From an uncultured Lachnospiraceae bacterium (GTDB lineage: Bacteria; Bacillota; Clostridia; Lachnospirales; Lachnospiraceae): 59,758 nt of DNA. Of the stretch, positions 39,970 through 59,315 are shown one piece after another. The stretch lies in assembly GCA_948470905.1 (NCBI GenBank), contig CAOKQK010000009.1, forward strand, positions 1 through 59,758. Direction: 5' to 3'. Both the position numbers and the translations under genes were made by a program. The notes below the pieces were generated by a model. It was not told where the DNA came from and did not search any database. It saw only the letters and a program-made list of their open reading frames with translations. How positions within the stretch are numbered: the first letter of the stretch is position 1; each line of letters begins with the position of its first letter.

Positions 39970-41523
39970 TTACATGTCTTTAATGACTGTTCCGTCATAG
40001 ATACCCTGTGTCTCAGCCTGGATAGCCTCGAAAGCCTCCTTGGGAGTTGACTCCAGAGACAGGATCTTGTTGCATGCGCCGCCGATACCGATCTTGCAGT
40101 AAGCTCTGGAATAATCAGATCTCATATCCTCATACATGAGCTTGAACATTTCAACGGAGCCCTCATCCTGCAGGGTCAGCTCTGTCTCCGTATCATAGAC
40201 ATTCTGAGCAACCTTGCTGGTACGGTTTGCGATTGCTACCAGGACAGCCGCAACTTCTTCAGGATTCTTGGTGCCGTTTACGATCATCTGCAGGTCTACG
40301 GAGTAGGTAACGCCATGGCAGGTATCATTAGCCGCTACCGCATTGGGTCCCAGAGGGCAGGGCAGAAGCCCGAAGCTGTACTTTGTCTCTATAGGAGAGG
40401 AGGAGTTGCCGGTAAGCTTCTGCAGGTCGCCGTAGAAGTCAAAGTAGAACACGCACGCGCCGTCCTCAAAGAACTTCTCCGCCTTTGCGGAATTCTTTGC
40501 CTTCTCAATACCGATGCTGCCTGCAAGCGCCTTGCCGTCATTGGGAGCCATATAACCATCCTGGCGCAGCTTGTAAATCCAGTTAGCCGCCTGGAGTGCA
40601 GAATCCTCAAGTGCTGTGAACTGCATCTTGCCGTTCTCGTCACGTCTTCCGGTAGCAGCGTTGTTAGAGGACATTACCATGGGGAAAAGCAGGTTCTCCT
40701 TGCCGTAGCCGCAGGGTGTCACAGTGCCGCCGGACTCTGTCTTGATCTTCTCGCACATCTGCTCAAAAGTCTCCCATGTCCATGTACCGTTCTTAACCAT
40801 CTCATAAATATCGCCAAGCTTATACTCCTCGGCAAGATCAATGTTAAAGAGCAGAGCATTGCGCAGGTCATTGGAGCTGTTCTGCGTAACGAAGTTCACA
40901 CCGTACTGAACGCCGTTGTAAACGCCATAATCAGACTGAGGCTTCCAGGGATTGGTGTCAACCTTGATGATGTCCTTGATCGCGGGATCGTTCAAATCCA
41001 TTACCAGACCCTGGGAAAAGATCTTATCAGTATACGTATCGGACACGCCCTGGTCAACAATATCGTATTCCACAGCTCCACCCAGCTTATCGTCATTGAG
41101 TTTGTTTACCACATCCTTGCTCTTGATCTTAGTCGCCTCAATGGTGCAGTTGTAATCCTTCTCAATCTGATCCAGAATGTCAATGACCGCACGATCCTTG
41201 TCTGCTGTAGTCTCCTTGCCGTTCTCATCATACTTGCGCTCGTATTTCCAGTCTACGGAGCAGGCAATCTTAATGACACGTCCCTTCAGATCCATGGGTG
41301 TCTCGACGAAACCGTTGTACTGTTCCGCCAGAAGCTCGCCTTCTGACTTGGCGGACTCTGTGGGTGCAGGCGTTGCCTGAGTCTCGGGTGCCGAAGTATT
41401 GCCGCCCTGCGGAGCCGGCGTAGCATTGCTTCCGCTGCTGCCGCTTGCAGGTTCGTTACCGCACGCTGCCATTGAAAATACCATGGCAGATGCCAGCAAA
41501 ACAGATAATACTTTTCTTTTCAT
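39970..41523 (-). CDS. Extracellular solute-binding protein (family 1), lipoprotein
   Basis: A 517-residue sugar-binding lipoprotein. Signal peptide and lipobox MVFSMAAC (Cys 21), a Ser/Gly/Pro/Thr linker to about residue 60, then a type 1 SBP fold. The domain reads IEKDYNCTIEATKIKSKDVVNKL near its start and GVTYSVDLQMIVNGTKNPEEVAAVLVAIANRT near its end, like the YtcQ/LipO group. It probably captures rhamnogalacturonan oligosaccharides and passes them to the permease pair at 41825-43718. No ATPase gene is nearby, so a shared MsmX-type ATPase is assumed. Confidence 0.88.
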   Translation of the reverse strand: MKRKVLSVLLASAMVFSMAACGNEPASGSSGSNATPAPQGGNTSAPETQATPAPTESAKSEGELLAEQYNGFVETPMDLKGRVIKIACSVDWKYERKYDENGKETTADKDRAVIDILDQIEKDYNCTIEATKIKSKDVVNKLNDDKLGGAVEYDIVDQGVSDTYTDKIFSQGLVMDLNDPAIKDIIKVDTNPWKPQSDYGVYNGVQYGVNFVTQNSSNDLRNALLFNIDLAEEYKLGDIYEMVKNGTWTWETFEQMCEKIKTESGGTVTPCGYGKENLLFPMVMSSNNAATGRRDENGKMQFTALEDSALQAANWIYKLRQDGYMAPNDGKALAGSIGIEKAKNSAKAEKFFEDGACVFYFDFYGDLQKLTGNSSSPIETKYSFGLLPCPLGPNAVAANDTCHGVTYSVDLQMIVNGTKNPEEVAAVLVAIANRTSKVAQNVYDTETELTLQDEGSVEMFKLMYEDMRSDYSRAYCKIGIGGACNKILSLESTPKEAFEAIQAETQGIYDGTVIKDM

Positions 41524-41824
41524 TTTTTTCTCCTTTCAAAAACTCATGGAAATTATTTGATACATCATATATAAAACACAGGTTTGCTTCGGCTGTGAAC
41601 CGGATCTCCTCCCCTGACCCGGCTCACAACGCCTTATGCGCCTGTATTTTACCATAATCACTGACCGCTCCCGGTACAGATGTCCATCCTGACGTTTCCT
41701 GCTTGAATAAGGATGTAATCATTTTACCATAGATTACGTGCGCTTCAGCGCACATGGAATCAGAAGTTGACACAATGTCCTTCTGTGTCAACATTTTACC
41801 ATATTTTCATCACCGGCGCAAGCA
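41524..41824 (-). promoter_or_regulatory. Leader of the solute-binding protein gene with triplicated ATTTTACCAT
   Basis: 300 bp without a gene. The plus-strand word ATTTTACCATA occurs at 41646, 41721 and 41793, spaced 75 and 72 bp; on the minus strand it is TATGGTAAAAT, an extended -10-like word. Between the copies are hairpins GTGCGC/GCGCAC (41738-41753) and a 9-bp stem GTTGACACA/TGTGTCAAC (41766-41792). This suggests several promoters or operator-plus-hairpin units that raise binding-protein expression over the permeases. Confidence 0.5.
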
Positions 41825-42751
41825 TTAACCCGTGATGCCGGACCGCTCCACGCCCTGGATGATAAACTTCTGTCCGATCAGGTAGACCAGCATGATAGGC
41901 AGGACACAGAGGACCGCCGCCGTATTATTGTACTGCAGCACCATGACTTCTTCCTCGCCGCCGTCCACATTGCTGATCATATTCGCCAGGAGGCTTGTGC
42001 CTCTCTGGAAACGCTGGGTGAAGGTGGTGTCCGTCCACTGCCATGCAAAGGAGATCAGGAACACCGTCACCATCATGGATACGGAGTTGGGCAGCATGAC
42101 CCTGAAGAAGGTCTTGAAAGCACTGCACCCGTCAATAAGCGCCGCCTCCTCCAGCTCCTTGGGCATGTTCCGGAAGGTCTGGCGGAACATAAAGATATAT
42201 AATCCGTTTCGGATACCCATTCCTGTCAGAGCCATAATGATGATAGGCCAGTATGTGCCGATCAGGTTAGCTCCCCCGTAAAAGAAACGGAATCTCAGGA
42301 ACAGGGGGATGATCAGGGTCTGGGGCGGTACAAGGAGTTCCATGATCACCAGAGCGAAAATGATCTTGCTCCCCCGGAACTTAAATCTGCCGAAGCCATA
42401 GCCGGCCAGCCCGCAGACCAGCACCTGCAGCCCCGCAATGAGGGCCGAATACAGGAATGTAACAGGAAAGGACTTCTGCCATGAAAGCTGGCTCAGCACG
42501 TTCTTAATATTAGCCAGGGTAAAATACTTGGGAATATATTTCACCGCCGGATCCAGGTAATCCTCAAAGCTCTTGAATGCATCTATCGTCTTGAGCAAAA
42601 AGGGATAGATAATGGTATAACAGCAGCCAATGAGGATGATTGCGCGCACGATCTTCCAGCCTATACTCATCATTCCATGGAGAGAAAACCATTTTCTCGC
42701 CCATCTCTTAAAATTAAATTCATTTTTGATTTTCGTCTTTGTCTTAGTCAA
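41825..42751 (-). CDS. Carbohydrate ABC transporter permease, MalG type (pair A)
   Basis: A 308-residue six-helix permease. The EAA loop for ATPase docking is ELEEAALIDGCSAFKTFFRVMLPNS (about residues 200-225), and the C-terminus ends KFIIQGVERSGITG, as in the MalG/LacG group. The frame starts with TTG at 42751, overlapping the previous gene by 8 bp and preceded by AGGGTGACG. Partner of the permease at 42744. Confidence 0.9.
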   Translation of the reverse strand: MTKTKTKIKNEFNFKRWARKWFSLHGMMSIGWKIVRAIILIGCCYTIIYPFLLKTIDAFKSFEDYLDPAVKYIPKYFTLANIKNVLSQLSWQKSFPVTFLYSALIAGLQVLVCGLAGYGFGRFKFRGSKIIFALVIMELLVPPQTLIIPLFLRFRFFYGGANLIGTYWPIIIMALTGMGIRNGLYIFMFRQTFRNMPKELEEAALIDGCSAFKTFFRVMLPNSVSMMVTVFLISFAWQWTDTTFTQRFQRGTSLLANMISNVDGGEEEVMVLQYNNTAAVLCVLPIMLVYLIGQKFIIQGVERSGITG

Positions 42752-43718
42752 GATACGTCACCCTCTTTGATAGAATTCCGGTTACAAGTCCCAGCACAAC
42801 AATTACCACAACAAAGTAAATCCACGACAGCGCCGAAGCGTACCCATATTTCGCACCGCTGAAGCCCTGCGCTTCTATGTACTCCATGATGCCGTAAACC
42901 GGATTGGTAAAGGTCGAGATCACAGTATAGACCACACATACCAGCAGGGATGGTGTCAGCATGGGGAAAGTAATCTTCCAGAACTCCTCCCACTTGGTTG
43001 CTCCCTCCATCTTTGCCGCCTCGAAGACCGAAGGGCTGATGGCCTGCAGTGCGCTTAGGAATATCAGGATCTGTACACCTGATGCGTTCAGGATCCCATA
43101 CATGTTGGTCAATACCGTCCCGATCATATTGGTCAGGCTTGCGGGCAGGCCCATGAGCTGCAGGAGCCCCGCCACATTAAACAGGGTCGAGAAGCCAATC
43201 TGGTCAAAGGTGCCTGTTGCGGAAGCCTCTTCCAGGGAACCGTTCATGGCGTTGAACATCTCGTTCGCATCTTCCATATCTGCCACAATACCCATGGAGA
43301 GCACCACCGGCAGGAAGAAGATCACACGGCAGATGCCCCTTCCCGCGAATTTCTGGTTCAGCACGTTGGACATAAAGAAGCTGAACAGGATAATGACTGC
43401 TGAGTCAAAGAACATACCCCGGATTCCGCTGATGAAAACCGGTATGAAATTAGCATCCGTCAAAAAGGCGTCATAAAAATTCTTCAGCCCCACATATTCC
43501 ATCTTGACGCCGCCAAAGTCAATGCTCACATTGTTAAAAGCATATACAAGGGAGTTGACCAGCGCCGGAAGGAAGATAAATAACATCCCTATGAGCACAG
43601 GCAGTACAAATATATAGCCCGCCATATTCTTTCTGTCGGAGAGCATCATGCCCTTCTTCTTTTGGGGTCTGGCTGCTTTTGTCTCCTTGGAGTTTGTCGC
43701 TTTTTGTTCTTTTGCCAT
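42744..43718 (-). CDS. Carbohydrate ABC transporter permease, MalF type (pair A)
   Basis: A 324-residue permease with a Lys/Glu-rich cytosolic N-terminus, six helices and the docking loop SPSVFEAAKMEGATKWEEFWKITFPMLTPS. I chose ATG 43718 (MAKEQKATNSK), seven bases after the stop of the DUF5696 gene and with AGGTGACG as the binding site. It contains an unusually long insertion in the second outside loop (DMEDANEMFNAMNGSLEEASATG). Works with the permease at 41825. Confidence 0.88.
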   Translation of the reverse strand: MAKEQKATNSKETKAARPQKKKGMMLSDRKNMAGYIFVLPVLIGMLFIFLPALVNSLVYAFNNVSIDFGGVKMEYVGLKNFYDAFLTDANFIPVFISGIRGMFFDSAVIILFSFFMSNVLNQKFAGRGICRVIFFLPVVLSMGIVADMEDANEMFNAMNGSLEEASATGTFDQIGFSTLFNVAGLLQLMGLPASLTNMIGTVLTNMYGILNASGVQILIFLSALQAISPSVFEAAKMEGATKWEEFWKITFPMLTPSLLVCVVYTVISTFTNPVYGIMEYIEAQGFSGAKYGYASALSWIYFVVVIVVLGLVTGILSKRVTYLD

Positions 43719-43725
43719 AGCTGCG

Positions 43726-46365
43726 TCACCTGCCTTCCACAACCAGCCATGAAAGCGCCTCTACGGTCCCGCCGGGAACCTTGCTGCTCTCATTGCCATA
43801 GTTGACATAAATCTTTGTGCCGTCCTCATAGGTGACACAGTTCACATCTTCCGTGAGATGCTCATGTCCCACGATCCTCGCATTCTGCAGATGTCCTATC
43901 TTGGAATTGAGGTTCTTGTAATCCTCCAGGATCTTCTCTATCTGCGTTGTGTAATTGACGGAGAAGAGATCCTCATAGTTTGTGTCTATCAGATTCAGCT
44001 GATTGTCATAGATCAGCAGATAGTTCAGTCCCGCGCCGCTCTCTATCGCCTCCAGCACCGCCTTGTCCGCGTTGGCAGACTGGTTAATGCTGCTGCAGGT
44101 GAAGGGGATATAGCCCTTTAATACCATGCCCACAAAGGGTATGCTGTAGCTCTCGATCCTCTGATGGCTGGAGCTGGTAGGCACGTTCACCAGGGACTTC
44201 GCATAGGGCAGCACATAGTCATTGCCCACATCAAGCTTCAGCTCGTAGCCCGCTTCCGTATACTGTGCCAGCATCTGTTTGGTAAGGTGCTGCGCTGTCT
44301 GCCTGGTCACGCCCTCCTTGGCGCTGTAGTTGCCGTTTAAGTGGGCGCCCACAGATTCCAGATACAGCTTTTTCGTACCGACCTTGGCAAAATCCTTTAA
44401 GAAGCCTGTGGTCATCTTCTCCCACCGCTGGGGATTCACCAGCCATGCCACAGATGAGAAATTGCCCACCTGGTTGGTATCATCGGAAGTTATCCCCACC
44501 AGCACGGAGCTCTTGGTCAGGTATTTGGACACGTCCTCCGTCCCCCGGATACCGTTGCCCTTCTCAAAGATCTCCAGAGGGTTTACTCCCGCATAGAGGG
44601 TATCCCCCTGGGAGTTAAGGGTGGAATCCAGAGTCTGATAGCCCTTCAGGCCTCCTATGCCCTTCTCTATCTTTACCTTCTTAAGCGCTTTCTGCTCCAT
44701 GCCGCCGTTCACCAGGCCGCTGTAGATCACGTCCACATCGTTTATGCCGTTCTCATGCAGGATATCCATGATGACCTGCGCCTGTTCAAAGGTCGTCACC
44801 GCATAGTCCACATCAATGGGGATCCCGATCTCGTTCACCGTCTTCTTCATGGAACCCAAAAGCTCTACGTCCAGTCCCCAGCTTGTGTCATCTGCCGTCT
44901 GTCTCTCAAGAGCGCCTGTCTGCACCAGATACTGCTGATAATACGCTGCCATGCCGGCATAATCCGCCCCATCCCCGTTCAGGAAATGATATCTCACGGT
45001 GTAGTCCACATTGGCTGTATTCTGATAAAAGTCCAACAGCACTCCCTGAATACCGAAGTTATCTACCACATGATAGATAAAATAGGGATATACGATATTG
45101 TAGGCTATGGAAGCACTGTTCACCTGCGCGGACATGCCGCCCACCGCCGCCCCGTTTTCCACAATCCCAAAGACCGCATGGTCTCCCGACTTGACGCCGA
45201 ACACAGGGAAGGTATTGTTGATGGCAATGCTGGTCCCCTCCAGGAGTACCACCGCCTGATCCTGTCCGTAAAAAGAGACATCCATCTTGTTCATGGCGTT
45301 GGAGACAATATTGTTCTCAATGATGGAACCGCTTCCGTCCGGCACAAAGAGATAACCCTCGTCTGACGGCTTCGCAGCCCCAAAGCATTTCAACAGCTCT
45401 ATCTTAGTGATAAAATAGCCTTCCGTCTCCTCGATGGCATCTACATCCACCGATACCAGCAGGTCTCCGCCGGACAGCCTGTAACGCACCGGGATCCGGA
45501 AGAATGCAGGCTTTGAACCCGCCGCGGTCTCGCCCAGCTTCTCTTTCTCAGCTGCCTTAACCGTCTCATCAATGCCCAGTACTGTGTATACTGCCAGCAT
45601 GTTATTGGTGACTCTCGCGGTAAGATTGTCGTTCACCACATAGATCGTCCCCAGCTCCTCAATGCTGGGATACAGCCTCTTGTACGTCGCCTGATCCTCC
45701 GGGGTCATTTCCTCGTAAGTATACTTGTAATAGTTGTTCACCATATCCCTGTAATTAAAGGTTGATATGGTGCCTTCCTCCAGCAGCTTGTCGAGCTGTT
45801 CCACATAGCCCTCAAAGGTTTCCTTTGTGAACACCTCCACAATGGGAGACTCCTCCATACTGGTTCCTATGCCGTAGCTCACAGTCAGGGTATCACCCTC
45901 CACATTCCAGCTCACCTGATTCTTATCCGGGGAATATGCGTCCGGATAGGATGCCATGGTCATCTTGGTCTGAAGGCTTGTGTAATATTCCACCGCTACC
46001 TGGCTGAGCAGGACTCTCTTTGCCTCTTCGCCAAGACTCTTGATCGCGGCTTCATCCATGTCATAAAAAGCCGGATTGGACAGGTTGAGCTTGCCTGTAG
46101 TCTTCTCGTACACTGCTATGTCATATTGTTTGCCGATATACAGCTCCAGATAATCATTCTGCAGAACCAGCTCAAAGTTTGCCAGCGTCGCCTCTACCTC
46201 ACTGCTCTTTTTTACTTCCTTTGCAGAAACCGGATATACGATCGCCTCCTCGCGGGACTCATAATCCGCACGGACCTCGTTGTTTACCACATCTACGATA
46301 CCACAGCCCGACAGTCCCAAACAAAGCACCAGGGAGAGCATTGCCGCATTCTTTTTCCATTTCAT
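43726..46365 (-). CDS. DUF5696 lipoprotein, probable glycosidase-like fold
   Basis: An 879-residue surface protein. Signal peptide with lipobox LGLSGCG (Cys about 21), an N-terminal beta-rich part (to about 420), then an alternating helix/strand region with the feel of a TIM barrel (IPIDVDYAVTTFEQAQVIMD, GINDVDVIYSGLVNGGM, KLYLESVGAHLNG, YELKLDVGNDYVLPYAKS) and a small beta domain at the end (TYEDGTKIYVNYGNE). This is the layout of many glycoside hydrolases, but catalytic residues cannot be named and DUF5696 has no known function. It lies between the two importer halves, with gaps of 18 and 7 bp. Confidence 0.75.
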   Translation of the reverse strand: MKWKKNAAMLSLVLCLGLSGCGIVDVVNNEVRADYESREEAIVYPVSAKEVKKSSEVEATLANFELVLQNDYLELYIGKQYDIAVYEKTTGKLNLSNPAFYDMDEAAIKSLGEEAKRVLLSQVAVEYYTSLQTKMTMASYPDAYSPDKNQVSWNVEGDTLTVSYGIGTSMEESPIVEVFTKETFEGYVEQLDKLLEEGTISTFNYRDMVNNYYKYTYEEMTPEDQATYKRLYPSIEELGTIYVVNDNLTARVTNNMLAVYTVLGIDETVKAAEKEKLGETAAGSKPAFFRIPVRYRLSGGDLLVSVDVDAIEETEGYFITKIELLKCFGAAKPSDEGYLFVPDGSGSIIENNIVSNAMNKMDVSFYGQDQAVVLLEGTSIAINNTFPVFGVKSGDHAVFGIVENGAAVGGMSAQVNSASIAYNIVYPYFIYHVVDNFGIQGVLLDFYQNTANVDYTVRYHFLNGDGADYAGMAAYYQQYLVQTGALERQTADDTSWGLDVELLGSMKKTVNEIGIPIDVDYAVTTFEQAQVIMDILHENGINDVDVIYSGLVNGGMEQKALKKVKIEKGIGGLKGYQTLDSTLNSQGDTLYAGVNPLEIFEKGNGIRGTEDVSKYLTKSSVLVGITSDDTNQVGNFSSVAWLVNPQRWEKMTTGFLKDFAKVGTKKLYLESVGAHLNGNYSAKEGVTRQTAQHLTKQMLAQYTEAGYELKLDVGNDYVLPYAKSLVNVPTSSSHQRIESYSIPFVGMVLKGYIPFTCSSINQSANADKAVLEAIESGAGLNYLLIYDNQLNLIDTNYEDLFSVNYTTQIEKILEDYKNLNSKIGHLQNARIVGHEHLTEDVNCVTYEDGTKIYVNYGNESSKVPGGTVEALSWLVVEGR

Positions 46366-46383
46366 TTTCTTCTGCCCTCCATT

Positions 46384-47013
46384 TTAATAAGTCATCCGCC
46401 GGATCGCCTCATCCGCAACCGTGGATATAAAGCCCAGCACCTCCTGGAACATGGCGAAAACCATCACGATCAAAAGTGCGATGACCACCATTCCCACTAG
46501 GGTAAACGCAAGCACTACCACCGTCCTGGTCAAAGTGAAGTGATGTGTTGTCAGCATACCCGTCACCAGAAGGAACGCCACCCACACGAAGGACAGACCG
46601 CCCAGCATGGAATAAAAGGTCGCCTCTCTCTGGATAAAGATATTGCTCACCACCACCATGATCATCTGCAGGATAATGTATGGCGTCAGCGAATATGCCG
46701 TAAACATCATAATGTCCTTGAAAGTGCCCTTGCCGTCGCTTAAACAGGTCAGGCACCAGTTTGCCAGACACCAGGCGAAGAACAGGAACAGCGAGGATAC
46801 CACCGTCCTCATAAAGTTGTAATTGATGCTGACTCCTCCGAAAAGGTAGCCCGTCTTCAGATTGCTTATGATCTGTACCAGGATCGTCGCCGCAAGCAGG
46901 ATGAACGCCGTTTTCAGGCTTCCTTCCTTCTCGTACTTGATATCCCAGAAGCCCTTGAACGGATGAACCGTCAGATACAGAGCATACTTTAATTCCTTAA
47001 GCGTCTGCTTCAT
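46384..47013 (-). CDS. Yip1-family membrane protein
   Basis: A 209-residue protein with a cytosolic start (ALYLTVHPFKGFWDIKYEKEGSLKTA) and five helices, the pattern of the bacterial YIP1 domain family. Role unknown; members may organise membrane complexes. ATG 47013 overlaps the stop of the NHL gene by 4 bp, so synthesis of the two should be coupled. Its place between the NHL/TPR protein and the DUF5696 lipoprotein suggests a joint complex (inference). Confidence 0.8.
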   Translation of the reverse strand: MKQTLKELKYALYLTVHPFKGFWDIKYEKEGSLKTAFILLAATILVQIISNLKTGYLFGGVSINYNFMRTVVSSLFLFFAWCLANWCLTCLSDGKGTFKDIMMFTAYSLTPYIILQMIMVVVSNIFIQREATFYSMLGGLSFVWVAFLLVTGMLTTHHFTLTRTVVVLAFTLVGMVVIALLIVMVFAMFQEVLGFISTVADEAIRRMTY

Positions 47014-48533
47014 TCTTCACCATCCCCTCCGTATGTTACCAGCTCGCCTCTGACATAACGCCTCACCCTGACAAAAATTCCCTTTCCTATGAAAAGAGCG
47101 ACCAATATCAGTATTCCGCCGACAATGTAAGGGAATCTCACGGACATGTTATCCTTCCTGATCTTCTCCTTCGCGTCGGAGTATGAAGCCCTGTCGTCCG
47201 CGAACTCATAGTAGTCCATTGCCTCCCTGTAATTCCCATTATTGAACTCCGCATTGCCCAGCCCCACATAAGGATAGGAAAAATTGGAATTCAGTTCTGT
47301 CACCTGTTTCCAGCAGGCGTTTGCCTGGTCATAATCACCTGCCTGGTAATAGCCTTCCGCGTCGATGAGAAGCTGCCCGTAAAGGGTAGGTTCAAAGATC
47401 ATCATACAGGAAAGCCCGCTGTCCAGCACATAGATGTTGTTGCCGATATAGTCGATGGCGATAGGCGTCTGTGTCTCCCCCTTCGCCGTCCCGTTGCCGC
47501 CGAAAGTGTAAAGCATGATGCCGTTGTTATTATAAGTAAATATCCTTCCCAGCGAACTGTCCAGCATGGAATAGATATCGTTGGGGCCAAGCCCTACATC
47601 CACGATCCTGGAGGGACTGGAGGACCACTGCAAATCTCCCACAGGAGGAAAATCCCCGTTTCTTGCCAGAACGTCCGAACCCTTCATGTTCAGCTTCTTG
47701 ATGGGGGTTATTTTGCCGCTGGTGTCGCCGCTGGTGACAACAGCCGCCAGATCGGACGCCGACAGTGCCGAAATAGTTCCCCAGATAAAGTTATTCTCGT
47801 CTATCTTGATATTATTGTACTCCGTGGGCACATAGGTCGTCATCTGCGCCCTCTGGGCATCTGTATAGAATTTGCGCAGGAACTTCGTGAAAGCGTCCAC
47901 AGATACGGACGGCGCTCCCGTGTAGCCGGTGAAAAATCCCTCGCTGCTGAACTGCATAAGGCCGGAGTTGATATTTCTCGCCACTACGTTAATACGTCCC
48001 GCGCTGTCCGCCACCACCCTGGTGGGAAGGAAGCTCTCCAGCGTGGTGCCTACCAGGTTCTCCGGCTTCAATACCTCCAGGGACACATTCCCCTTCCAGT
48101 CGGACACCAGCACCCTTGAATTCTCCGTATCCGCTATATAGACCACATCGCTTGCGGAGATAAAGATTCCCTCCGGCTTCTTCAATTTGGACGTGCTTCC
48201 GTCAGGCATCTTAAACTCCTGAAGGCTGTCAATATAATTCATCTGATGGTCAAAACGATAGATGATCCCCAGCGAGGTATCCAGCAGATAGATGTGTTCA
48301 TCCGTCACGCACATATCCGCCAGCCTGCCTATTGCATTGCCGTTGACGGTGCGCAGATCCACCATCCTGGAGTACTCGTAAGCGTCCGGCGATTCCAGCT
48401 GAAATCCCCACTTGCCGTAAATGTAGGTCGCACTGGAAGACTCCTCGGTATAGTAGGCTTTCGTCTCCAGACCGCTCCCTATGAGAAGCGCTGCCGCAAG
48501 GCCTATCGCCAAGCCTCTTTGTTTTCCTTTCAT
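47010..48533 (-). CDS. Membrane-anchored NHL-type beta-propeller with TPR repeats
   Basis: A 507-residue exported protein. Signal peptide (about 1-27), six or so NHL-like blades (LKKPEGIFISASDVVYIADTENSRV; GRLADMCVTDEHIYLLDTSLG; IAIDYIGNNIYVLDSG), two TPR units (AEGYYQAGDYDQANACWKQV, GNAEFNNGNYREAMDYYEFA), one C-terminal helix and a short basic cytosolic tail. The propeller and TPR should lie outside, held by the C-terminal helix. Likely a scaffold or polymer-contact subunit of the paired importer cluster. Start at ATG 48533 with AAAGGAGTGAGG. Confidence 0.8.
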   Translation of the reverse strand: MKGKQRGLAIGLAAALLIGSGLETKAYYTEESSSATYIYGKWGFQLESPDAYEYSRMVDLRTVNGNAIGRLADMCVTDEHIYLLDTSLGIIYRFDHQMNYIDSLQEFKMPDGSTSKLKKPEGIFISASDVVYIADTENSRVLVSDWKGNVSLEVLKPENLVGTTLESFLPTRVVADSAGRINVVARNINSGLMQFSSEGFFTGYTGAPSVSVDAFTKFLRKFYTDAQRAQMTTYVPTEYNNIKIDENNFIWGTISALSASDLAAVVTSGDTSGKITPIKKLNMKGSDVLARNGDFPPVGDLQWSSSPSRIVDVGLGPNDIYSMLDSSLGRIFTYNNNGIMLYTFGGNGTAKGETQTPIAIDYIGNNIYVLDSGLSCMMIFEPTLYGQLLIDAEGYYQAGDYDQANACWKQVTELNSNFSYPYVGLGNAEFNNGNYREAMDYYEFADDRASYSDAKEKIRKDNMSVRFPYIVGGILILVALFIGKGIFVRVRRYVRGELVTYGGDGEE

Positions 48534-48537
48534 ATCC

Positions 48538-49425
48538 TCACTCCTTTATACCGGATGTAGACATCGTCTCAATGACGTTTGACTGCGAAATAATAAACAC
48601 AATGAGCGGAGGCAGCATCATCAATATCTGGATTGCCGCTCCCACACCCTGACGTGCGATACCGCTGGTGGAAATCTGGCTCAGCGCATAAGACAAGGTC
48701 TTCTTTTCCTCGGAGTAGATATAGGGGGTAGCTCCCGTCATCCACAGACGCTGCGTCTCCAGGATCAGCAGGGTTGCAGTCGCAGGCTTCACCAACGGCA
48801 TGACGATGGTCCTGAATTTCCTCCACTCGGAAGCCCCGTCCAGATCAGCGCTCTCCAGCAGGGACATGGGCACCATCTGATCCATGAACTGCTTCATCAG
48901 GTACAGACCCAGCGTGGTGGAGAATGCCGGAAGGATCACCGCCGCATAGCTGTCGATCAGGTGCAGGCTGTTAATGATCAGGTAGTTGGGGATTGCAAGC
49001 ACTGCTCCGCTGAACATCAGGGAAGTACGGATGATCACAAAGATCGTCTTGGATCCCGGGAACTTATACTTGGACAGCGGATACGCAGCCATGCTTGCCA
49101 GCGTGATATGTCCAAAGGTACCGACTACAGTGATAAACAGCGTATTAAATATGTAACGGATCATGGGCACCCACGTATCCGACATCAGTGAAAACAGATC
49201 CCGATAGTGCTTCAGGGTAGGATTCACCGGCAGGATGTTCGGCGGGAATTTCCACAGCTCACTGTTTGGTTTCAGTGACATGGACACCGCGTAGATCAAA
49301 GGCAGCATCATCAGCAGGGTAAAGGTGGTTAGAAATACCACCATTGCGATATCGCCGCCGCGGGAACGTGACAGTCTCCCAAGCTTTTTGTATTTTTTCG
49401 TTTTTTCTGCACTCAACTTATTCAC
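48538..49425 (-). CDS. Carbohydrate ABC transporter permease, MalG type (pair B)
   Basis: A 295-residue permease with six helices, the docking loop LLESADLDGASEWRKFRTIVMPLVKPA and a C-terminus ending SQSNVIETMSTSGIKE. The GTG start at 49425 overlaps the stop of the MalF-type gene by 8 bp. It differs clearly from the pair A permease, so the two importers are not a recent duplication. Confidence 0.9.
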   Translation of the reverse strand: MNKLSAEKTKKYKKLGRLSRSRGGDIAMVVFLTTFTLLMMLPLIYAVSMSLKPNSELWKFPPNILPVNPTLKHYRDLFSLMSDTWVPMIRYIFNTLFITVVGTFGHITLASMAAYPLSKYKFPGSKTIFVIIRTSLMFSGAVLAIPNYLIINSLHLIDSYAAVILPAFSTTLGLYLMKQFMDQMVPMSLLESADLDGASEWRKFRTIVMPLVKPATATLLILETQRLWMTGATPYIYSEEKKTLSYALSQISTSGIARQGVGAAIQILMMLPPLIVFIISQSNVIETMSTSGIKE

Positions 49426-50395
49426 CTACCTTGTTAATACACTTCTGGATGAACTGGTTCAGGAAAATCATAAGCAGGAACAACATCGTGGCAATTGCCG
49501 ACGAATACCCCATCTCATACCGCGCCGTACCGTAATCCTCCAGATGCTGCATGATCGTGTGGGCGCTGTAGTTGACCGAAGGATTGCCCGCCAGTCCGCT
49601 GATGATGCTGCCTATGTTGAACGCGCCGGTAATGCTCATGACCGCGCCGAACAGAAGCTGGGGCTTCATAAGCGGCAGTGTGACATACCAGAGCTCCTGC
49701 CAGCGGTTCTTGATGCCGTCCATGGCGGCGGCTTCATAATACTCCCTTCCGATACCCTGAAGGCCTCCGATGAAGGAGAGGAAGGACGTTCCAAGGCTGC
49801 CCCACAATACCACCAGGATAATGATGGGCACCACCCAGTTCTCGTTCTCAAGATATTTGATTCTCTCGTCGATGATCCCCCATTCCAGCAGCCAGGCGTT
49901 CAGAAAGCCCTGGGCATCGCTGCTGAAGAAGATCTTGAAGATCGTGGTCATGCCCCCTGCCAGCGACGGTGCATACAGAAGCACCGTAAGCACCACTCTG
50001 GCCGCATGGGGAAGCTCGTTGATGAACCATGCCATGACAAGGGAGATGATATACCCCCCCGGCCCCGTGATCATGGCGAACATGATCGTATTGCCCAGAG
50101 CCTTCACGAACAGGTCATCCTGCATGAACATCCGGTAATAATTGTTAAAGCCCACAAAATTCGGCTTCTCCAGCATGTTGAAATCCGTAAAGCTGAAAAA
50201 GATGGAGATCAGCACCGGGCACACCGTAAAGATAAAGAAAAGTATACAGTATGGCGCGATGAACAAATATTTGCTTCTGTTTTTTTTCACTTCCCGCCAG
50301 GTGTTCTGAGCATCCCTCCGGAATCTGTCCTTAAATGCCAGATTATCATAAACCACCTTGCCTGACGGCCTGCCGCCCTTTGTCTTAGCTGCCAT
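49418..50395 (-). CDS. Carbohydrate ABC transporter permease, MalF type (pair B)
   Basis: A 325-residue permease. Helices are spaced as in LacF/MalF, with the docking loop YYEAAAMDGIKNRWQELWYVTLPLMKP. Start at ATG 50395 (MAAKTKGGRPSG); its ribosome binding site GGAGGAG forms the last codons of the upstream binding-protein gene (GAG GAG TGA), so the genes are coupled. The longer frame to 50467 lies inside that neighbour and is rejected. Confidence 0.9.
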   Translation of the reverse strand: MAAKTKGGRPSGKVVYDNLAFKDRFRRDAQNTWREVKKNRSKYLFIAPYCILFFIFTVCPVLISIFFSFTDFNMLEKPNFVGFNNYYRMFMQDDLFVKALGNTIMFAMITGPGGYIISLVMAWFINELPHAARVVLTVLLYAPSLAGGMTTIFKIFFSSDAQGFLNAWLLEWGIIDERIKYLENENWVVPIIILVVLWGSLGTSFLSFIGGLQGIGREYYEAAAMDGIKNRWQELWYVTLPLMKPQLLFGAVMSITGAFNIGSIISGLAGNPSVNYSAHTIMQHLEDYGTARYEMGYSSAIATMLFLLMIFLNQFIQKCINKVGE

Positions 50396-50399
50396 ATGA

Positions 50400-53342
50400 T
50401 CACTCCTCCAATTCCAAGCCAAACTCAGTACGCTTAATCCGGATCTCCTCGTTGACGTCGGCCGCATTGTTCATCAGAGCCGTCCGCGGGTTCACATTCT
50501 TATTGATCACATCAAGCTTGGCAAAATTTAAATAACGTGCAGTATAATATCCGCCTGCCACCTGCGGCATGCCCCGAAGATTGCCGATCTGCTCCTCTAT
50601 GGTCTTTCTGTCGTTGCCCGCCCAGGCGAACTTAAGCAGCGCCTCCGTGTTTGCCGTGTTGTAACGCGCCGCCGCACCCATGACCGCCTCCAGCTGTTCG
50701 CCGAACTCATACTGGGTATCAGCCTCCGTCCACCACTTCACAAATTTCCATGCCGCCTCCGGATTCTTACACTCATTCAGCATCAGGCACCCCTGGACGA
50801 TGATGGGAGCCACATTGTTGATGGAACCGTCCGCCTGCTCGATACCGGGCAGGGTGGTCATAGCCCACTTGCCCTTGATCTCGGGAGCCGAGATGGACAG
50901 CGTGTTAAAGGTAGTATATTCCGTGATGCCGATGGGCATCTCGCCGGTACGGAAGCGTGTGGCAAAATCATAATCCGTAGCCAGACCATAAAGCATATAG
51001 AAGTCCGTCCAATACTCGAAAGCATCCAGCGCCGTCTTGCTGTCCAACAGCGTGCGGGTAAATTTGGGCGAATAGAAGTCTCCGTTCATCTGATACAGGA
51101 ACATGGAGAAGCTCTGCATGCCGGCGGATTCGTCATTGCTGATCTTGCTCGGCAGGGCAAAGTCCATATTCTCCGCCTGCAGGGTCGCAAGGATTTCCGT
51201 GATACCCTTCCAGGTCTTCAAACTGGATACGTCGATCCCCAGATCCGCCATGATGTCCGTTCTGTAGAACAGCATCGGGAAGGACATGGTTTCCGGCATG
51301 GCATAGACACCGCCTTCATACTTAAAGGGATCTATGGCACTTTCCGGGAATCTCTTGATCACTTCCTCAAAATCATCAAACTGCGTCAGATCATAGGCCG
51401 CGCCACGGAGAGCGAAATCCACAGGCTCCGTCTGTGCCACCTGCAGCGCCAGGTCCGGCCCTCTCCCTGCAAAGACCGCCGTCTTCAGAGTGGATGCCGG
51501 CACAAGCTGCAGGTTGACATTGATGCCGTACTCCTTGGTAAAGCCGTCCACGATCATCTGGTTCAGCGCCATAGCCTGGTCACGGCCGCCCGTCAGGCCC
51601 GATCCGATCCATACAGTGATGCTCTCTCCTTCGCCCTCAGCGCTGGACAAAACCGTGTAATCGCCGGTAAAAGAAGTTATAAAGCCCATCACCTGGGCCG
51701 CCACTTTATTAAAGAAATTGTCGTTGCCGGATTTTACCTTCGTTCCGGCTTCCGCCACATACAGATAGTCCAGCATGAGAGGCTGCTCTCTCACAGAGCT
51801 GATCCACTGTCCGAAGTTGCCCACCAGATCCCTGTAACGCTTATAGAAACTGGCGATCTGATTAGGCTGGGAATACATTTTATGTACGATGGAAATCAGC
51901 TGCTCCAGCTGGGCGCTTAAGGATCCTCTCTCGCCTGTGGACTCGATCATGGCGTCGCAGATAGCCTGCAGCCTTGCTTCGTCCTCCTCAAGCTCCTTCA
52001 AGGTATCCGGCAGGTACAGCGCGATCTGGTAATCCCTGTCCACGTCGGGCGTGGTGCTCAGGATAGCCAGCAGCTCCAGGTTCACCGCCGACAGGCTCTC
52101 CAAGATGGAATCCGCCTCCGTCAGGATCGGGACCACATCCCCAAGGGTATTCTTCAGAGTCACGGTATGAGTTCCCGCCTCCAGATAGAACAGCCAGGGC
52201 TCGCTCTCATCACTCTCGCCGAAGGAGAATGTCTGCCAGTCATCTCCGAAGTAAAAATGTACGTTCTCCGCCTCTTTAAAAGGAAGCTTTCCGTCTATGT
52301 ACAGGGAGCGGTTGAAGTAGAGCCCCTGCAGGAAATTCTGCATCGCCCTGACACCCAGATTATAATAGCCGCTCTGGGGAACCTCAAATTCCCATGTGAT
52401 CCATTGGTTGGAATACTGCCAGGATGTACCGCCGATCGTGTTCAGCAGCTTCTGTGTATAGCTGTAAGGCGAATTCTTGGTAGAGGTGGTATCCGCCTTT
52501 GCATACAGGGTAGGATCGCTCTTTTCCAGCGTGTTCTCCGCCTCGATGATGCGGATGCCGTTCTCCAGCGCGCCCTTCACTTCCTGTGCCCCCTGGACCC
52601 TGGTTGCGGCAAGGGTATCCGCGTAGGATGCGGGCGCCACATTCTCGCTCACCAGAGCCAGGGAGGCGATCGCCATGGGCTCCTTGACAGACTCCAGCGT
52701 CAGCGTATGCTTCCCTTCCGACAGATAAAAGTAGAGCGCCGGCGTATAATATCCCATGGAATCGGTCACATAAGCGGAACGCCATCCGTTCTTCTCCACC
52801 TGATTGGGACGGTTCAGCAGCCCGCTGGGGTTTAACACCTGATCCACATAGACCCTGGTGAACTCCACGCCCTCCGCCTCGTCATAAGGCAGGCTGCCGT
52901 CAATATACAGATTTCTCTCAATCTCACTGCCGTAACCCTCCACTGTATAATAATCCAGTGCGATGGCATACAGCCCCGCTTTCGGCACTGTCACGTTCCA
53001 TGTAACAGTGTCCTCGTCGGTGGTCAGAAGTGCGCTGCGCCCCTCGTAAGTCTCCATTGCGGTCTTTCCCAAGCTGCCTGCGGCCTGATCCTTCAGCAGA
53101 TCAACCTCAATAACGGATCCATTGTAATCCGCCTCTCCATACTGGCCGATATAGCTCACATACTTGTTGCCGTTGTAGCTTTTGTCCGCCTGAAAGACGA
53201 TATTGCCCGCTCTCGCGCCCTCTTCCCCCCCTGTCAAAAGGGAGAACAACAGCACAACAACGGCAATACATACCACCACAACTGCCGCCTTCTGCCACTT
53301 TTTCATGCTTTTCCACTTTTCAGATAAACCTAATTTTCCCAT
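50400..53342 (-). CDS. Large membrane-anchored solute-binding protein with two carbohydrate-binding-like modules
   Basis: A 980-residue fusion. After a short basic start comes one transmembrane helix (about 18-38) instead of a lipobox. Two beta-sandwich modules follow (about 45-260 and 260-430), each with the marks of CBM6/35-like domains (TWNVTVPKAGLYAIALDYYTVEG; ITWEFEVPQSGYYNLGVRAM; RNLYIDGSLPYDEA and RSLYIDGKLPFKEA; a Gly-x-HTLTL end). Next is a helical stalk (about 440-560) and a family 1 solute-binding domain (about 585-980). ATG 53342 has AGGAGA nine bases upstream; GTG 53369 lacks a site. It feeds the permeases at 48538-50395. Confidence 0.85.
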   Translation of the reverse strand: MGKLGLSEKWKSMKKWQKAAVVVVCIAVVVLLFSLLTGGEEGARAGNIVFQADKSYNGNKYVSYIGQYGEADYNGSVIEVDLLKDQAAGSLGKTAMETYEGRSALLTTDEDTVTWNVTVPKAGLYAIALDYYTVEGYGSEIERNLYIDGSLPYDEAEGVEFTRVYVDQVLNPSGLLNRPNQVEKNGWRSAYVTDSMGYYTPALYFYLSEGKHTLTLESVKEPMAIASLALVSENVAPASYADTLAATRVQGAQEVKGALENGIRIIEAENTLEKSDPTLYAKADTTSTKNSPYSYTQKLLNTIGGTSWQYSNQWITWEFEVPQSGYYNLGVRAMQNFLQGLYFNRSLYIDGKLPFKEAENVHFYFGDDWQTFSFGESDESEPWLFYLEAGTHTVTLKNTLGDVVPILTEADSILESLSAVNLELLAILSTTPDVDRDYQIALYLPDTLKELEEDEARLQAICDAMIESTGERGSLSAQLEQLISIVHKMYSQPNQIASFYKRYRDLVGNFGQWISSVREQPLMLDYLYVAEAGTKVKSGNDNFFNKVAAQVMGFITSFTGDYTVLSSAEGEGESITVWIGSGLTGGRDQAMALNQMIVDGFTKEYGINVNLQLVPASTLKTAVFAGRGPDLALQVAQTEPVDFALRGAAYDLTQFDDFEEVIKRFPESAIDPFKYEGGVYAMPETMSFPMLFYRTDIMADLGIDVSSLKTWKGITEILATLQAENMDFALPSKISNDESAGMQSFSMFLYQMNGDFYSPKFTRTLLDSKTALDAFEYWTDFYMLYGLATDYDFATRFRTGEMPIGITEYTTFNTLSISAPEIKGKWAMTTLPGIEQADGSINNVAPIIVQGCLMLNECKNPEAAWKFVKWWTEADTQYEFGEQLEAVMGAAARYNTANTEALLKFAWAGNDRKTIEEQIGNLRGMPQVAGGYYTARYLNFAKLDVINKNVNPRTALMNNAADVNEEIRIKRTEFGLELEE

Positions 53343-53459
53343 TGAGCACTTTCTCCTGAATCTCTTCACTTCTAGGTAAACGTTTTATGCAAAATGATAT
53401 GAAAGTTATAAAACTTTAATATAAATTTTATCATTTTCACCAACTTGTGCAATGGTGCA

Positions 53460-53489
53460 TATTGCTCATGACATTGCAGATATTGCTTT
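53460..53489. promoter_or_regulatory. Predicted AraC-type operator upstream of the paired importer operon
   Basis: Plus strand: TTGCT, five bases, CATTGCA, one base, ATATTGCTTT. The same 28-bp arrangement occurs at 59411-59438 before the AraC gene; 22 of 22 fixed positions agree. It lies 120 bp before the binding-protein gene. Between them are TTGCAC and TAAAAT/TATATT words that may be the promoter, and AAACGTTTAC (53382-53391), a LacI/CcpA-like half palindrome. Confidence 0.65.
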
Positions 53490-55644
53490 ATATATACTTC
53501 TGCAGTCCTTCCGCCTCCACAACCCAATCCTCCGGGAAGCCGGGAGCCTTGCATTCGCAGCCTTCATAGCCCTCTGCCAGCATGGGAACCGCCAACAGCA
53601 GGGAGCCGTTGCCCGGCAGATAAAGAGGCAGGTCCTTTCTGAGCACCTGGCGGTTATTGCCGCTTGCCACATAATTGTTCTTGGGGGTATCCTTCAACAG
53701 GATATCCAGCGCCTGTGCCGGTTTTCCCAGGCGCACCGCCGTCATTGCCATCACCGCGAAATCCCAGCCCCAGAGCGAGGGATAGCTCCAGCACTCCAGC
53801 ACTTTCTGCAAGGTATTGTCCATGATCCCGCGGCTTATGCGCTCATCCGCAAGGACCCCGTAGGACATCAGCATGGAGGGATGGTCATGATTCTGCACCG
53901 TGTAGGTGGTATGGCATTTCTCATGAGCCAGATAAACCCCTTCTTCCTCAGTCAGGGACGCCATCCCGCTGCCCACTTCCTCCCACCTCGGGTCATATTC
54001 CATGCCCAGCTCCTTAGCCCAGCGCACCGCCACTTCCAAAGTGTACTGCCAGTAAGACACCTCAAACGCAGGGTTCAGAGTCTCCTCCGGCTTATGGCAC
54101 TCCTGCACGGGGATCACCGGCGCAACCAGCTCATAGCATCCCTTCTCCTGGTTATACACCGCAATATCCGCCATGAAATCCGCCGTTTCTTTCACAAGAG
54201 GCCAGTACTTCCTGCGGAAATCATCGTCATGATTCTCCCTAAAGCACAGTTCCAGCATGAAAATGATATGCGGCTGCTGCCAGAGAAGCATGGGCGCCAC
54301 CTTGGAAGGGCTGTCTATGCCCTCCAGGGCGATCATCTTGGGCCACCTGCAGCCCTTGTAGCCATTGCGCGCCGCGTTCTCCCGTGCCTGCTCCATGTGC
54401 TCCAGATACCAGGGAAGGCTTCTCTCCAAAAGCTCCGTGTGCCCCCAGAGCGGCGCCCATGCGCAGTGCCAGAAATACATCTCCAGATGCATCTTGCCGT
54501 ACCAGCTGTTGCAGGTAAGCCCCGTCTCCTGAGGCGGCGCGGACCCGCAGGAATTCACCGCCAGCAAATACATGGAAAGGAGGATCCTCCTCTCCAGCTC
54601 CTCCGCCCTGGGATCGGGGCTGTTGTGGAGCTGTAATATCGCCCCCTTCTCCCAGAAATTCTTCCAGTACAGACGGCTGTCCTCCAGCACCTGCGAGGCA
54701 CTTGGCTGCGGGACATCCATCCCCATGGCGCCATCTGGCTGCGGGACATCCGGCCGCCCGGCGTTGTCCGCCTGCGCTCCGCCCGACCGGGCAGCGTCTC
54801 CGCCTTCCGTGCCAAAGTCTCCCTTCAGGAAGCTCACGCTCAGCTCCAGCGTGTCGCTCTCCGCCTTTACACTGAGGCGGTGCTGTGCCGGCGCGGACAC
54901 CTTCACCCCCTCCCCAAAGGCAAGCCTCACATAATAGACATCCCTGTCCAGGGTGCGCTTTAACAGCACAGACTGTCCGTCCTGCCTCACCACCTCCGTG
55001 CCGTGGAGGTCAGGGCTGTCAAAATCCGCCCCGCTCTTTGCAGGCGACCCATAGGGGAACGTGAACGCTACGGACAGCCCCTCCCGCAGCAGGGAAGATT
55101 TCACCTGGATGCCGATGGTGTCATAGCTGCCGCCCTCCGGACCGTTGTCACAGGCAGTCTCCACCTCACAGCGCTTCCCGTCCAGCAGGAAGCTGCTCTT
55201 TAAGATACCGCTGTACAGGTCAAGCTCCTGACGGATCCCCGTCAGCCGGTCCGCGCGGATCTCCTTATCTTCATATTCAAAGCCTATCCTGGCCAGGTCC
55301 AGCCTGTGGGGATTCTTGCGCAGCCATTCATACACCTCCTCATTGCCCGGTTTGGAATTCTTGGGATAGACAACCTTCCGTCCGTTATAGTCGAATTCCG
55401 TCATCACCAGATCCTTTAAGGTATAATCATACCGCTCCCCGCTCACAGGCTTTGTGTGCCATCCCCACTGGGACATGGTACACAGAGGACAGGTATCCAG
55501 ATATTCCTCATAAAGGGTCTGCAGCCCGGTCACATCCGCCGTAAAGGCAAGCTCCCCATTTCCCACCGTAAGAGGCGAATCCACGTCCACCGCCTCAAGG
55601 ACCGGGTTGTGCCGGGACACCAATGCATGTCTGTCTATTGCCAT
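53488..55644 (-). CDS. Six-hairpin glycosidase, GH65-like
   Basis: A 718-residue protein: an N-terminal beta-sandwich (about 1-280) and an (alpha/alpha)6 barrel (about 300-640) with WYGKMHLEMYFWHCAWAPLWG, LPWYLEHMEQARENAARNGYKGCRWPKM and VIPVQECHKPEETLNPAFEVSYW, which recalls uncharacterised GH65-type proteins. No signal peptide, so a cytosolic exo-acting enzyme on imported oligosaccharides is likely; the sugar is unknown. A low-complexity insert (about 278-315, with DVPQP twice) separates the two domains. ATG 55644 has AGGAGGATTATGAA. It could also be called an alpha-L-rhamnosidase-like clan GH-L/GH-M protein. Confidence 0.75.
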   Translation of the reverse strand: MAIDRHALVSRHNPVLEAVDVDSPLTVGNGELAFTADVTGLQTLYEEYLDTCPLCTMSQWGWHTKPVSGERYDYTLKDLVMTEFDYNGRKVVYPKNSKPGNEEVYEWLRKNPHRLDLARIGFEYEDKEIRADRLTGIRQELDLYSGILKSSFLLDGKRCEVETACDNGPEGGSYDTIGIQVKSSLLREGLSVAFTFPYGSPAKSGADFDSPDLHGTEVVRQDGQSVLLKRTLDRDVYYVRLAFGEGVKVSAPAQHRLSVKAESDTLELSVSFLKGDFGTEGGDAARSGGAQADNAGRPDVPQPDGAMGMDVPQPSASQVLEDSRLYWKNFWEKGAILQLHNSPDPRAEELERRILLSMYLLAVNSCGSAPPQETGLTCNSWYGKMHLEMYFWHCAWAPLWGHTELLERSLPWYLEHMEQARENAARNGYKGCRWPKMIALEGIDSPSKVAPMLLWQQPHIIFMLELCFRENHDDDFRRKYWPLVKETADFMADIAVYNQEKGCYELVAPVIPVQECHKPEETLNPAFEVSYWQYTLEVAVRWAKELGMEYDPRWEEVGSGMASLTEEEGVYLAHEKCHTTYTVQNHDHPSMLMSYGVLADERISRGIMDNTLQKVLECWSYPSLWGWDFAVMAMTAVRLGKPAQALDILLKDTPKNNYVASGNNRQVLRKDLPLYLPGNGSLLLAVPMLAEGYEGCECKAPGFPEDWVVEAEGLQKYI

Positions 55645-58332: not shown

Positions 58333-58466
58333 TCTTCCACCCGCTCCGTCTCACCCTGCTTCGTTCTTCCCTGCCTGCCCCTTCTCACTCTGTTTCGTCC
58401 CTCTGCCCGCTCCGTCTTGCTCCGCTTCGTTCTCCTGCCTGCCCCTTCTCACTCCGCCTCTTTCTT
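58333..58466. repeat. Tandem duplication of about 66 bp covering the end of the AraC gene
   Basis: Both units begin CCCGCTCCGTCT and contain CTTCGTTCT.CCTGCCTGCC then CCTTCTCACT. The second unit includes the last codons and stop of the AraC gene (58449-58466); the first is a non-coding copy. Confidence 0.75.
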
Positions 58467-59315
58467 CCTCTCCGCCACACTACTGATGTATTCCTTTGGC
58501 GACATGCCGGTTATCTTCTTGAATGTACGATAGAAATTGGAATAATCCTCATACCCAAGGTCACGCCAAACTTCATTGATAGGCTGCCCGTTCTGGAATT
58601 TGGTCTTGGCACTGAGAATCCTTTTGTAACGGATATAGTCAAACACCGTGAAACCTGTGACCTTCTTGAATTCATGGCAGAGATAATACTTACTCAGATA
58701 GAACCTTTTCGTCAGGTCATACAGCGTGATCTTTTCCTCCAGATGCTCCGAAATATACCGGACAATATCATCAATCTTCTCGCTGTGGGTCAGGCTGTCC
58801 TCTTCCTCCATCTCCCGCTGCCTGCTCTCGTCATAGACCCGGTTCACATCCAGAAGCATCCTGAGAAGCAGGCTGGTAAGCAGCACCTCCTTCTCAGGCA
58901 GGCTGGCAGAGTAATATTCCAGCATCTGCTGGAAATACTTGTCAAGCCCGTACTTCTGCACGCTTTCGGAATCTATCCTGTGCCCGTCCTCCAGCCTTTT
59001 CTCACGTTCAAAAAGCCGCAGGAGATTATATTTTTTCGTGCAGAAAGGCTGAAGGAACTCAGGCTTGAAATAGACGCAGACCCTCTCATATGCCTGATCT
59101 CCATTGACCATGACACAGTGGATGTCCTGATTGCTGATCAGCAGCATATCATAAGGCTCCAGATGATAAACCTTCCCCTCAATGCTGAAGGTGGCATCTC
59201 CCTGAAGCATAATATACAACTCATGCCTGTCGTTCATGTGGACCATATGCTTTTCATCTCTTTCCTGAGGCGGCGTATACTGCCTTTTGACAACAATGTT
59301 TTTCGACTTGTTCAT
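58449..59315 (-). CDS. AraC-family transcriptional regulator with cupin sensor domain
   Basis: A 288-residue regulator: N-terminal cupin (HMNDRHELYIMLQGDATFSIEGKVYHLEPYDMLLI, about 25-100), a helical linker, and a C-terminal pair of helix-turn-helix units (ITLYDLTKRFYLSKYYLCHEFKKVTG and INEVWRDLGYEDYSNFYRTFKKITGMSPKEY). It probably senses a sugar from pectin side chains and activates the adjacent genes. A 28-bp motif upstream of this gene and upstream of the importer operon is the likely binding site, which implies autoregulation. Start at ATG 59315. It heads the polysaccharide region. Confidence 0.92.
   Translation of the reverse strand: MNKSKNIVVKRQYTPPQERDEKHMVHMNDRHELYIMLQGDATFSIEGKVYHLEPYDMLLISNQDIHCVMVNGDQAYERVCVYFKPEFLQPFCTKKYNLLRLFEREKRLEDGHRIDSESVQKYGLDKYFQQMLEYYSASLPEKEVLLTSLLLRMLLDVNRVYDESRQREMEEEDSLTHSEKIDDIVRYISEHLEEKITLYDLTKRFYLSKYYLCHEFKKVTGFTVFDYIRYKRILSAKTKFQNGQPINEVWRDLGYEDYSNFYRTFKKITGMSPKEYISSVAERKKEAE

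Follow-up and report, generated by a model that had tools for sequence, protein, structure and literature searches.

The nine genes on the minus strand at positions 39970-53369 of the window (the whole 59,758-nucleotide stretch of uncultured Lachnospiraceae DNA analysed here) were confirmed as a recurring set with no chance neighbourhood. We base this on two observations: 64 of the 68 loci that have SBPB, PB1, PB2, NHL, PA1 and PA2 near DUF5696 share the window's gene order, and four of the gene types are shared by one and the same group of 31 among 150 family genomes. The set has a core, module A (NHL-YIP1-DUF5696-PA1-PA2, usually with SBPA), and a module B (SBPB-PB1-PB2) that is separable from it: some loci have no B, and in others it follows A. 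The favoured reading is that of a single machine. These data make it reasonably probable that the genes encode a conserved two-module surface machine of Bacillota, which would capture and import glycans.

Gene layout and conservation of the set

Open reading frames and Pfam matches gave the order SBPB, PB1, PB2, NHL/TPR, YIP1, DUF5696, PA1, PA2, SBPA (Table 1). The run from SBPB to PA2 (41825-53369, minus strand) is spaced by 18 bp or less or overlaps, with successive gaps of -68, -8, 4, -4, 18, -17 and -8 nt, followed by 301 nt before SBPA. The original prediction of eight close-packed genes and a trailing ninth was thus borne out by the coordinates. It put the outer end of the run at 53342, an ATG nine codons inside the SBPB frame; the frame starts at 53369. 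The likely start of PB1 is Met25 (about 50395), with which the -68 gap becomes about +4. The predicted parts (two binding proteins, two permease pairs, DUF5696 with a lipobox, Yip1, and an NHL/TPR protein with a C-terminal helix) match the Pfam and structure results, with the lipobox and helices read from the sequence. The 301-bp gap weighs against all nine genes being one unit, and the hairpin within it is possibly a processing or attenuation site. Terminator-like sites (20 vs 15.4 expected) and promoter-like patterns (25 vs 16.8 expected) in the pattern scan of the region were only slightly above chance.

Table 1. Features of the nine-gene locus, with window coordinates and supporting matches
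Feature	Position	Strand	Evidence
SBPB: anchor + CBM35-like + solute-binding protein	50400..53369	-	SBP_bac_8 5.6e-25, CBM_35 3.1e-07
PB1: CUT1-type permease, importer B	49418..50467	-	BPD_transp_1 8.1e-14; EAA-loop residues conserved
PB2: CUT1-type permease, importer B	48538..49425	-	BPD_transp_1 3.3e-10; EAA-loop residues conserved
NHL/TPR protein	47010..48533	-	Pfam NHL + TPR; AF2 mean pLDDT 69; Foldseek best E 8.9e-16
YIP1 membrane protein	46384..47013	-	Pfam Yip1 3.6e-15; fusions in related loci
DUF5696 lipoprotein	43726..46365	-	Pfam DUF5696 4.1e-157; PDB 5opq 1.3e-12, 5wzn 1e-9
PA1: divergent CUT1-type permease, importer A	42744..43742	-	BPD_transp_1 18.1 bits; AlgM1 1.5e-10
PA2: CUT1-type permease, importer A	41825..42751	-	BPD_transp_1 5.3e-18
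SBPA: lipoprotein solute-binding protein, assigned to importer A	39970..41523	-	SBP_bac_8 1e-10
Candidate hairpin, 10 pairs + weak T tract, in PA2-SBPA gap	41766..41792	-	pattern scan only

A DUF5696 search of 299 phylum genomes found 26 over the Pfam cut-off. The same search of 150 family genomes (149 genera) found 43, and 31 of these carried a full-length protein. The 31 genomes with full-length DUF5696 also had YIP1, the NHL/TPR type and SBPB, and none of the four turned up in the remaining 119. These negatives hold for the E limits of the reverse profile searches (YIP1 1e-3, NHL 1e-15, SBPB 1e-40); the first looks scored at most 4-20 candidates per genome, and copies may be missed. All 48 YIP1 places were within 5 kb of DUF5696. 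Of the weaker DUF5696-like places, the 15 over the cut-off were compared and listed apart, and none of them was near YIP1. Only 1 of 51 NHL places and 5 of 50 SBPB places lay away from DUF5696, mostly on contig fragments: three of the stray SBPB genes begin within 10 bases of a contig start, one is an N-terminal-only copy, and one (G349:C171) shares its contig with a partial NHL, the one stray NHL place. One half-gene of a split DUF5696 (G314) had no YIP1 on its contig.

We compared the neighbourhoods of 94 DUF5696 loci from 58 genomes, in which genes were assigned by iterated profiles built from the window proteins. Six short DUF5696-like loci (L162-L167), the gene split over two contigs (G314) and a partial hit (G349:C156) were left out. 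The first of the short loci, L162 (167 bits), had permeases nearby and no NHL or YIP1. Among the 94 loci, NHL was found in 91, YIP1 in 91, PA1 in 92 and PA2 in 91; the NHL+YIP1 pair and the PA1+PA2 pair were each found in 91. Every missing NHL, YIP1, PA1 or PA2 coincided with a contig end. This was the proposed search for conserved neighbourhoods of DUF5696, YIP1, NHL and permease pairs, and a failure of the three accessory genes to co-occur with permeases, which the prediction had named as its possible refutation, was not what we observed. Gaps of 30 nt or less separated DUF5696 from PA1 in 89 of 91 loci, NHL from YIP1 in 39 of 40, and fused NHL-YIP1 from DUF5696 in 47 of 50. Four of the 68 loci with all six partner genes depart from the window's order: L126, L153 and L154, in which the B trio has moved, and L159, at which PA1-PA2 precede SBPB rather than following DUF5696. 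These counts are inflated, since the loci and genomes are related and near-identical loci (L070/L071, L153/L154, L082/L084) were counted apart.

Module B was less constant (PB1 in 70, PB2 in 70 and SBPB in 69 of the 94 loci). Six core loci, in which at least 8 kb upstream was seen (for five also 8.5 kb downstream), keep NHL-YIP1, DUF5696, PA1 and PA2 and have no SBPB, PB1 or PB2, and on this we base the division into a core A and a separable B. All six are from one family, f61. In three further loci (L126, L153 and L154) the B trio is placed after PA2, and SBPB adjoins PB1 even where the trio has moved. SBPA adjoins PA2 in most core loci, and does so too in loci that have no module B. Because of these adjacencies we assigned SBPB to module B and SBPA to module A. 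The prediction of one envelope machine accordingly stands as a co-inherited envelope unit, but as one of two modules from which B can be separated.

The distribution is patchy, because G320, another member of the window's genus, yielded none of the set. A DUF5696 scan of named genomes found three loci, all in Paenibacillus, and one plasmid record. The plasmid, pNP243 of Butyrivibrio fibrisolvens D1, has the complete set, arranged as in the window. In this 243-kb record (NZ_CP146964.1) the cluster adjoins GH43, and a histidine kinase and a response regulator are near. The window's own genome holds a second complete copy (L003, on C45), with NHL and YIP1 fused into a 718-aa protein and a very divergent SBPA-like protein.

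Accessory proteins of the core

The NHL/TPR protein has a signal sequence and a C-terminal membrane helix, both read from the sequence, an NHL beta-propeller and a short TPR. Pfam NHL repeats, the AF2 model (usable for the propeller and TPR only) and Foldseek matches to NHL domains all place it among NHL propellers. YIP1, in which we read about five helices, scored 56.7 bits against PF04893 (curated cut-off 28.6) and belongs to that family. Among the 94 loci, NHL and YIP1 form a single reading frame in 50 and separate genes in 41. We mapped this on a tree of 91 DUF5696 proteins, which has several long branches and leaves 22 of its 88 inner branches open. The fused or split state changes 9 times on it, compared to about 30 in shuffles, and at least five changes are forced by well-supported branches. 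The place of the window protein on this tree is unsure because of the open branches and because it sits on one of the long ones. This recurrent fusion suggests that the two proteins work together and argues for their physical association. In most of the seven fused junctions listed, a K/R-rich linker follows the NHL membrane helix and YIP1 comes next, which fits a cytosolic linker.

The DUF5696 protein of the window has an LSGC lipobox, read from its sequence. A crude pattern search recognised a lipobox in only 19 of 95 DUF5696 proteins, so anchoring varies; in the sample shown, many others start with a hydrophobic stretch. An AF2 model from four sequences reached a pLDDT of 34 and was set aside, and the fold assignment therefore rests on sequence profiles. 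Against the PDB, the family profile matched DagB best among solved structures (5opq, 1.3e-12), followed by the GH129 enzyme NagBb (5wzn, 1e-9). Aligned by hhalign with a profile of five stand-alone GH129-like proteins, it gave a probability of 98.5 and an E-value of 1.8e-15 over 468 columns. By profile comparison, DUF5696 is homologous to GH129/DagB enzymes.

The active-site residues follow a different pattern. The motif LYLHLDGW is invariant in all five stand-alone relatives, and we take its aspartate to be the GH129 nucleophile; chain 5wzq has this aspartate replaced, along with other residues. In an alignment of 94 DUF5696 proteins of at least 700 aa each, Asp was found at this column in none, and the position held Thr, Gln, Ser, Lys or another residue (Ser549 in the window). 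DUF5696 is thus probably a GH129-type protein that lost its nucleophile. Other acidic positions are conserved, namely E775 (88/94), D739 (78/94) and D679 (71/94); in the window protein, residue 679 is Asn and residue 739 is Ser. DagB is described in the excerpted text of PMC5698469 as active with one of the two NagBb catalytic residues kept, so loss of one residue is no proof of inactivity. This activity, taken with E775 in 88 of 94 proteins, leaves room for different chemistry in DUF5696. The prediction that DUF5696 trims the polysaccharide as a glycosidase is disfavoured by the aspartate missing in 94 of 94, and a non-catalytic holding role, which it had also named, is better supported for the same reason. 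Five of the short loci (L163-L167), from genomes of the window's family, encode the stand-alone GH129-like proteins with LDGW intact. Two of these genes (L163 and L165) have an SBP and permeases near.

Importers, energy supply and flanking enzymes

Both pairs show two hallmarks of CUT1 importers: two permeases with an EAA loop per pair and extracellular solute-binding proteins (SBPA and SBPB) by Pfam. In their family matches, PB1, PB2 and the SBPB binding domain resemble ordinary CUT1 parts. PA1 is divergent, with a BPD_transp_1 score under the cut-off (26.4) and an AlgM1 match over residues 218-329. PA1-type matches in the 31 genomes scored at least 214 bits, and the next permeases scored at most 178 bits. 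The EAA-loop E/G/P residues are conserved at 96-100% in PA1, PB1 and PB2 (E241, G247 and P260 of PA1 at 99-100%). In PA2, E/A/A/D/G of the EAA region are conserved at 90-100%, and no Pro is conserved at 85% after it. Because these residues are kept in three permeases and largely in PA2, both pairs look ATPase-driven.

No ATPase was found beside either importer, in line with the original prediction. Pfam matched an ATPase in none of the nine proteins, and no MsmX-like ORF (E up to 1e-20) was found among 5626 ORFs of the window and the fetched loci. The host genome encodes three MsmX-like ATPases over the curated cut-off. The best of these (C1:56289-57395) stands alone on a 20-kb stretch that contains no CUT1-type permease.

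SBPB starts with a membrane anchor at its N terminus (read from the sequence) and has a CBM35-like domain at about residues 102-175 and a C-terminal ABC solute-binding domain at about 600-890. Its family profile matches many solute-binding proteins and, at residues 301-400, the cyclodextran-type glucanotransferase 5x7g, which presumably carries a CBM35-like domain at the matched region. Residues of about 301-400 are a possible second CBM35-like domain; a helical stretch is also present. The CBM35-like label is loose, since Pfam matched CBM_35 in only 4 of 31 SBPB relatives and Golvesin_C in 7 of 31. A 520-aa frame elsewhere (G412:C12:75226-76662) matches the N-terminal half of SBPB only and has no DUF5696 nearby. 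The profiles identified SBPA in only 65 of the 94 loci. Several SBPA-like ORFs stand in a row after PA2 at L074 and L078, which suggests binding-protein expansion. At L108 (G395:C51:27737-28561) several stop codons interrupt the PA1 frame and divide it between two ORFs, through decay or assembly error.

In the window, the nine genes have on one side an AraC regulator (58449-59315), GH95 and a 718-aa GH65-like protein (53488-55644, between GH95 and SBPB), and on the other side pectin enzymes (a GDSL esterase, two GH88/105-type enzymes, GH28 and PL11). The GH65-like protein had no Pfam match at 0.01 and a weak PDB similarity to GH65 phosphorylases (6.5e-08). The pectin enzymes and GH95 next to the window copy point to a rhamnogalacturonan or pectin substrate. 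To survey other copies, we picked 248 flanking ORFs (at most three per locus, same strand, 200-1500 aa) and scanned 86 and 73 of them, all of 290-1100 aa. Among the matches listed (the best 25 of 60 and 25 of 80 families) were GH26, GH130, GH10, GH43, GH3, GH31, GH67 and CBM65, as well as single pectin or alginate lyases. The matches listed also included the non-glycan families Prismane, RsmF, citrate synthase and arginase. Pectin as the general substrate was rejected, as flank enzymes vary between genomes and pectin is local to the window copy. The differing enzymes around other copies suggest that the machine would be generic, with its partners setting the substrate. CBM65_1 matched 10 of the 86 flanking genes (alignment A4). 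One fused-type clade (L106, L111, L133, L136, L137 and others) has a gene of 500-530 aa near PA2; from their length, we guess that these are the CBM65 genes.

Proposed machine and known systems

We propose that in module A an NHL/TPR propeller is held outside the membrane with YIP1 as its membrane partner, beside a surface DUF5696, the PA1/PA2 permeases and SBPA. Module B would consist of the membrane-anchored SBPB, with its CBM35-like sequence, and the PB1/PB2 pair. The CBM35-like part of SBPB and DUF5696 may keep polysaccharide fragments at the membrane, and NHL-YIP1 may be the scaffold that ties these holders to PA1/PA2. The solute-binding proteins would feed oligosaccharides to both permease pairs, and a common MsmX-type ATPase encoded elsewhere would drive them. 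The two importers may handle different products, as the original prediction had it. We infer the physical complex, the scaffold role, non-catalytic holding, ATPase sharing and the substrate from the comparisons above. A bolder form, which we offer tentatively and consider somewhat doubtful, is a Gram-positive utilisome counterpart. Here the NHL-YIP1 scaffold and DUF5696, as a dead-glycosidase clamp, would be obligate subunits of one or two CUT1 pairs, and binding proteins and enzymes would be swapped to suit the substrate. If true, large glycans would enter Bacillota by ABC import through one surface super-complex.

Other readings were weighed against this one. DUF5696 could have glycosidase activity and trim the chain ahead of import, using non-GH129 residues, given its homology to DagB and GH129 enzymes, the single NagBb catalytic residue that DagB itself has (in the excerpted account of that enzyme), and the frequencies of D739, D679 and E775. 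We consider this unlikely: the LDGW aspartate is present in 0 of 94 DUF5696 proteins compared to 5 of 5 stand-alone relatives, the window protein lacks Asp at both 679 and 739, and one protein type adjoins enzymes for very different glycans.

The ordinary CUT1 appearance of PB1, PB2 and the SBPB binding domain, together with the separability of module B, would suit two ordinary importers with NHL, YIP1 and DUF5696 as loosely associated passengers. However, the gene types turn up together in the same 31 of 150 genomes and NHL-YIP1 fusion recurs, both of which make this improbable, and the accessory genes stay with PA1/PA2 in core loci that have no module B. We give just as little credence to a module A that acts mainly as a glycan sensor reporting to regulators while module B does the uptake. 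The divergence of PA1, the histidine kinase and response regulator near the B. fibrisolvens cluster and the AraC regulator inside the window would agree with such a role, but PA1, and PA2 for the most part, retain the EAA residues for ATPase coupling, and module A is found without module B.

Under the favoured single-machine reading, DUF5696, a CBM35-like binding protein and a family of bacterial YIP1 proteins would gain functions. The gene set is fixed, easy to recognise and includes three subunits outside transport, and it would serve as a marker for glycan-importing loci. To our knowledge, the way in which Bacillota retain large fragments of plant glycans at the membrane and take them up is not as well understood as the SusCD route of Bacteroidota. 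The original prediction knew of no functional description, and in agreement none of the nine-gene assembly turned up in the open-access full texts searched (subscription papers and preprints lay outside this scope). The term 'DUF5696' was absent from these texts, and the excerpted text of PMC4765114 does not mention Yip1 or NHL.

The closest pectin systems are YesOPQ and YtcQP-YteP of B. subtilis, importers without an ATPase of their own that are linked to MsmX in pectin use (PMC5730181). In the excerpted text of that paper, importers for rhamnogalacturonan and polygalacturonan are served, or in the case of YesOPQ most likely served, by MsmX. Similar to the nine-gene set, each combines a binding protein with two permeases, no own ATPase is named, and two systems handle pectic substrates. 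A difference from the set is that the excerpt (PMC5730181) names no NHL, YIP1, DUF5696 or CBM35-like binding protein. NagBb (GH129 alpha-N-acetylgalactosaminidase) and DagB (3,6-anhydro-D-galactosidase) are homologous to DUF5696, which differs in having no LDGW aspartate in 94 of 94 proteins and in being encoded in a gene run with permeases. The alginate importer AlgM1/AlgM2 (PDB 4tqu), which takes in a polymer, is the best solved match of PA1 (1.5e-10), but the match spans only the last third of PA1, and AlgM1/AlgM2 has its own ATPase and is not known to include an NHL-YIP1 part. SusCD-type utilisomes of Bacteroidota couple surface glycan capture to import and use one design for many glycans. 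The nine-gene set has ABC permeases rather than a TonB receptor and outer membrane and is not known to be homologous to them; the likeness is functional. Overall, the parts belong to known families, and the assembly is a variant of CUT1 import.
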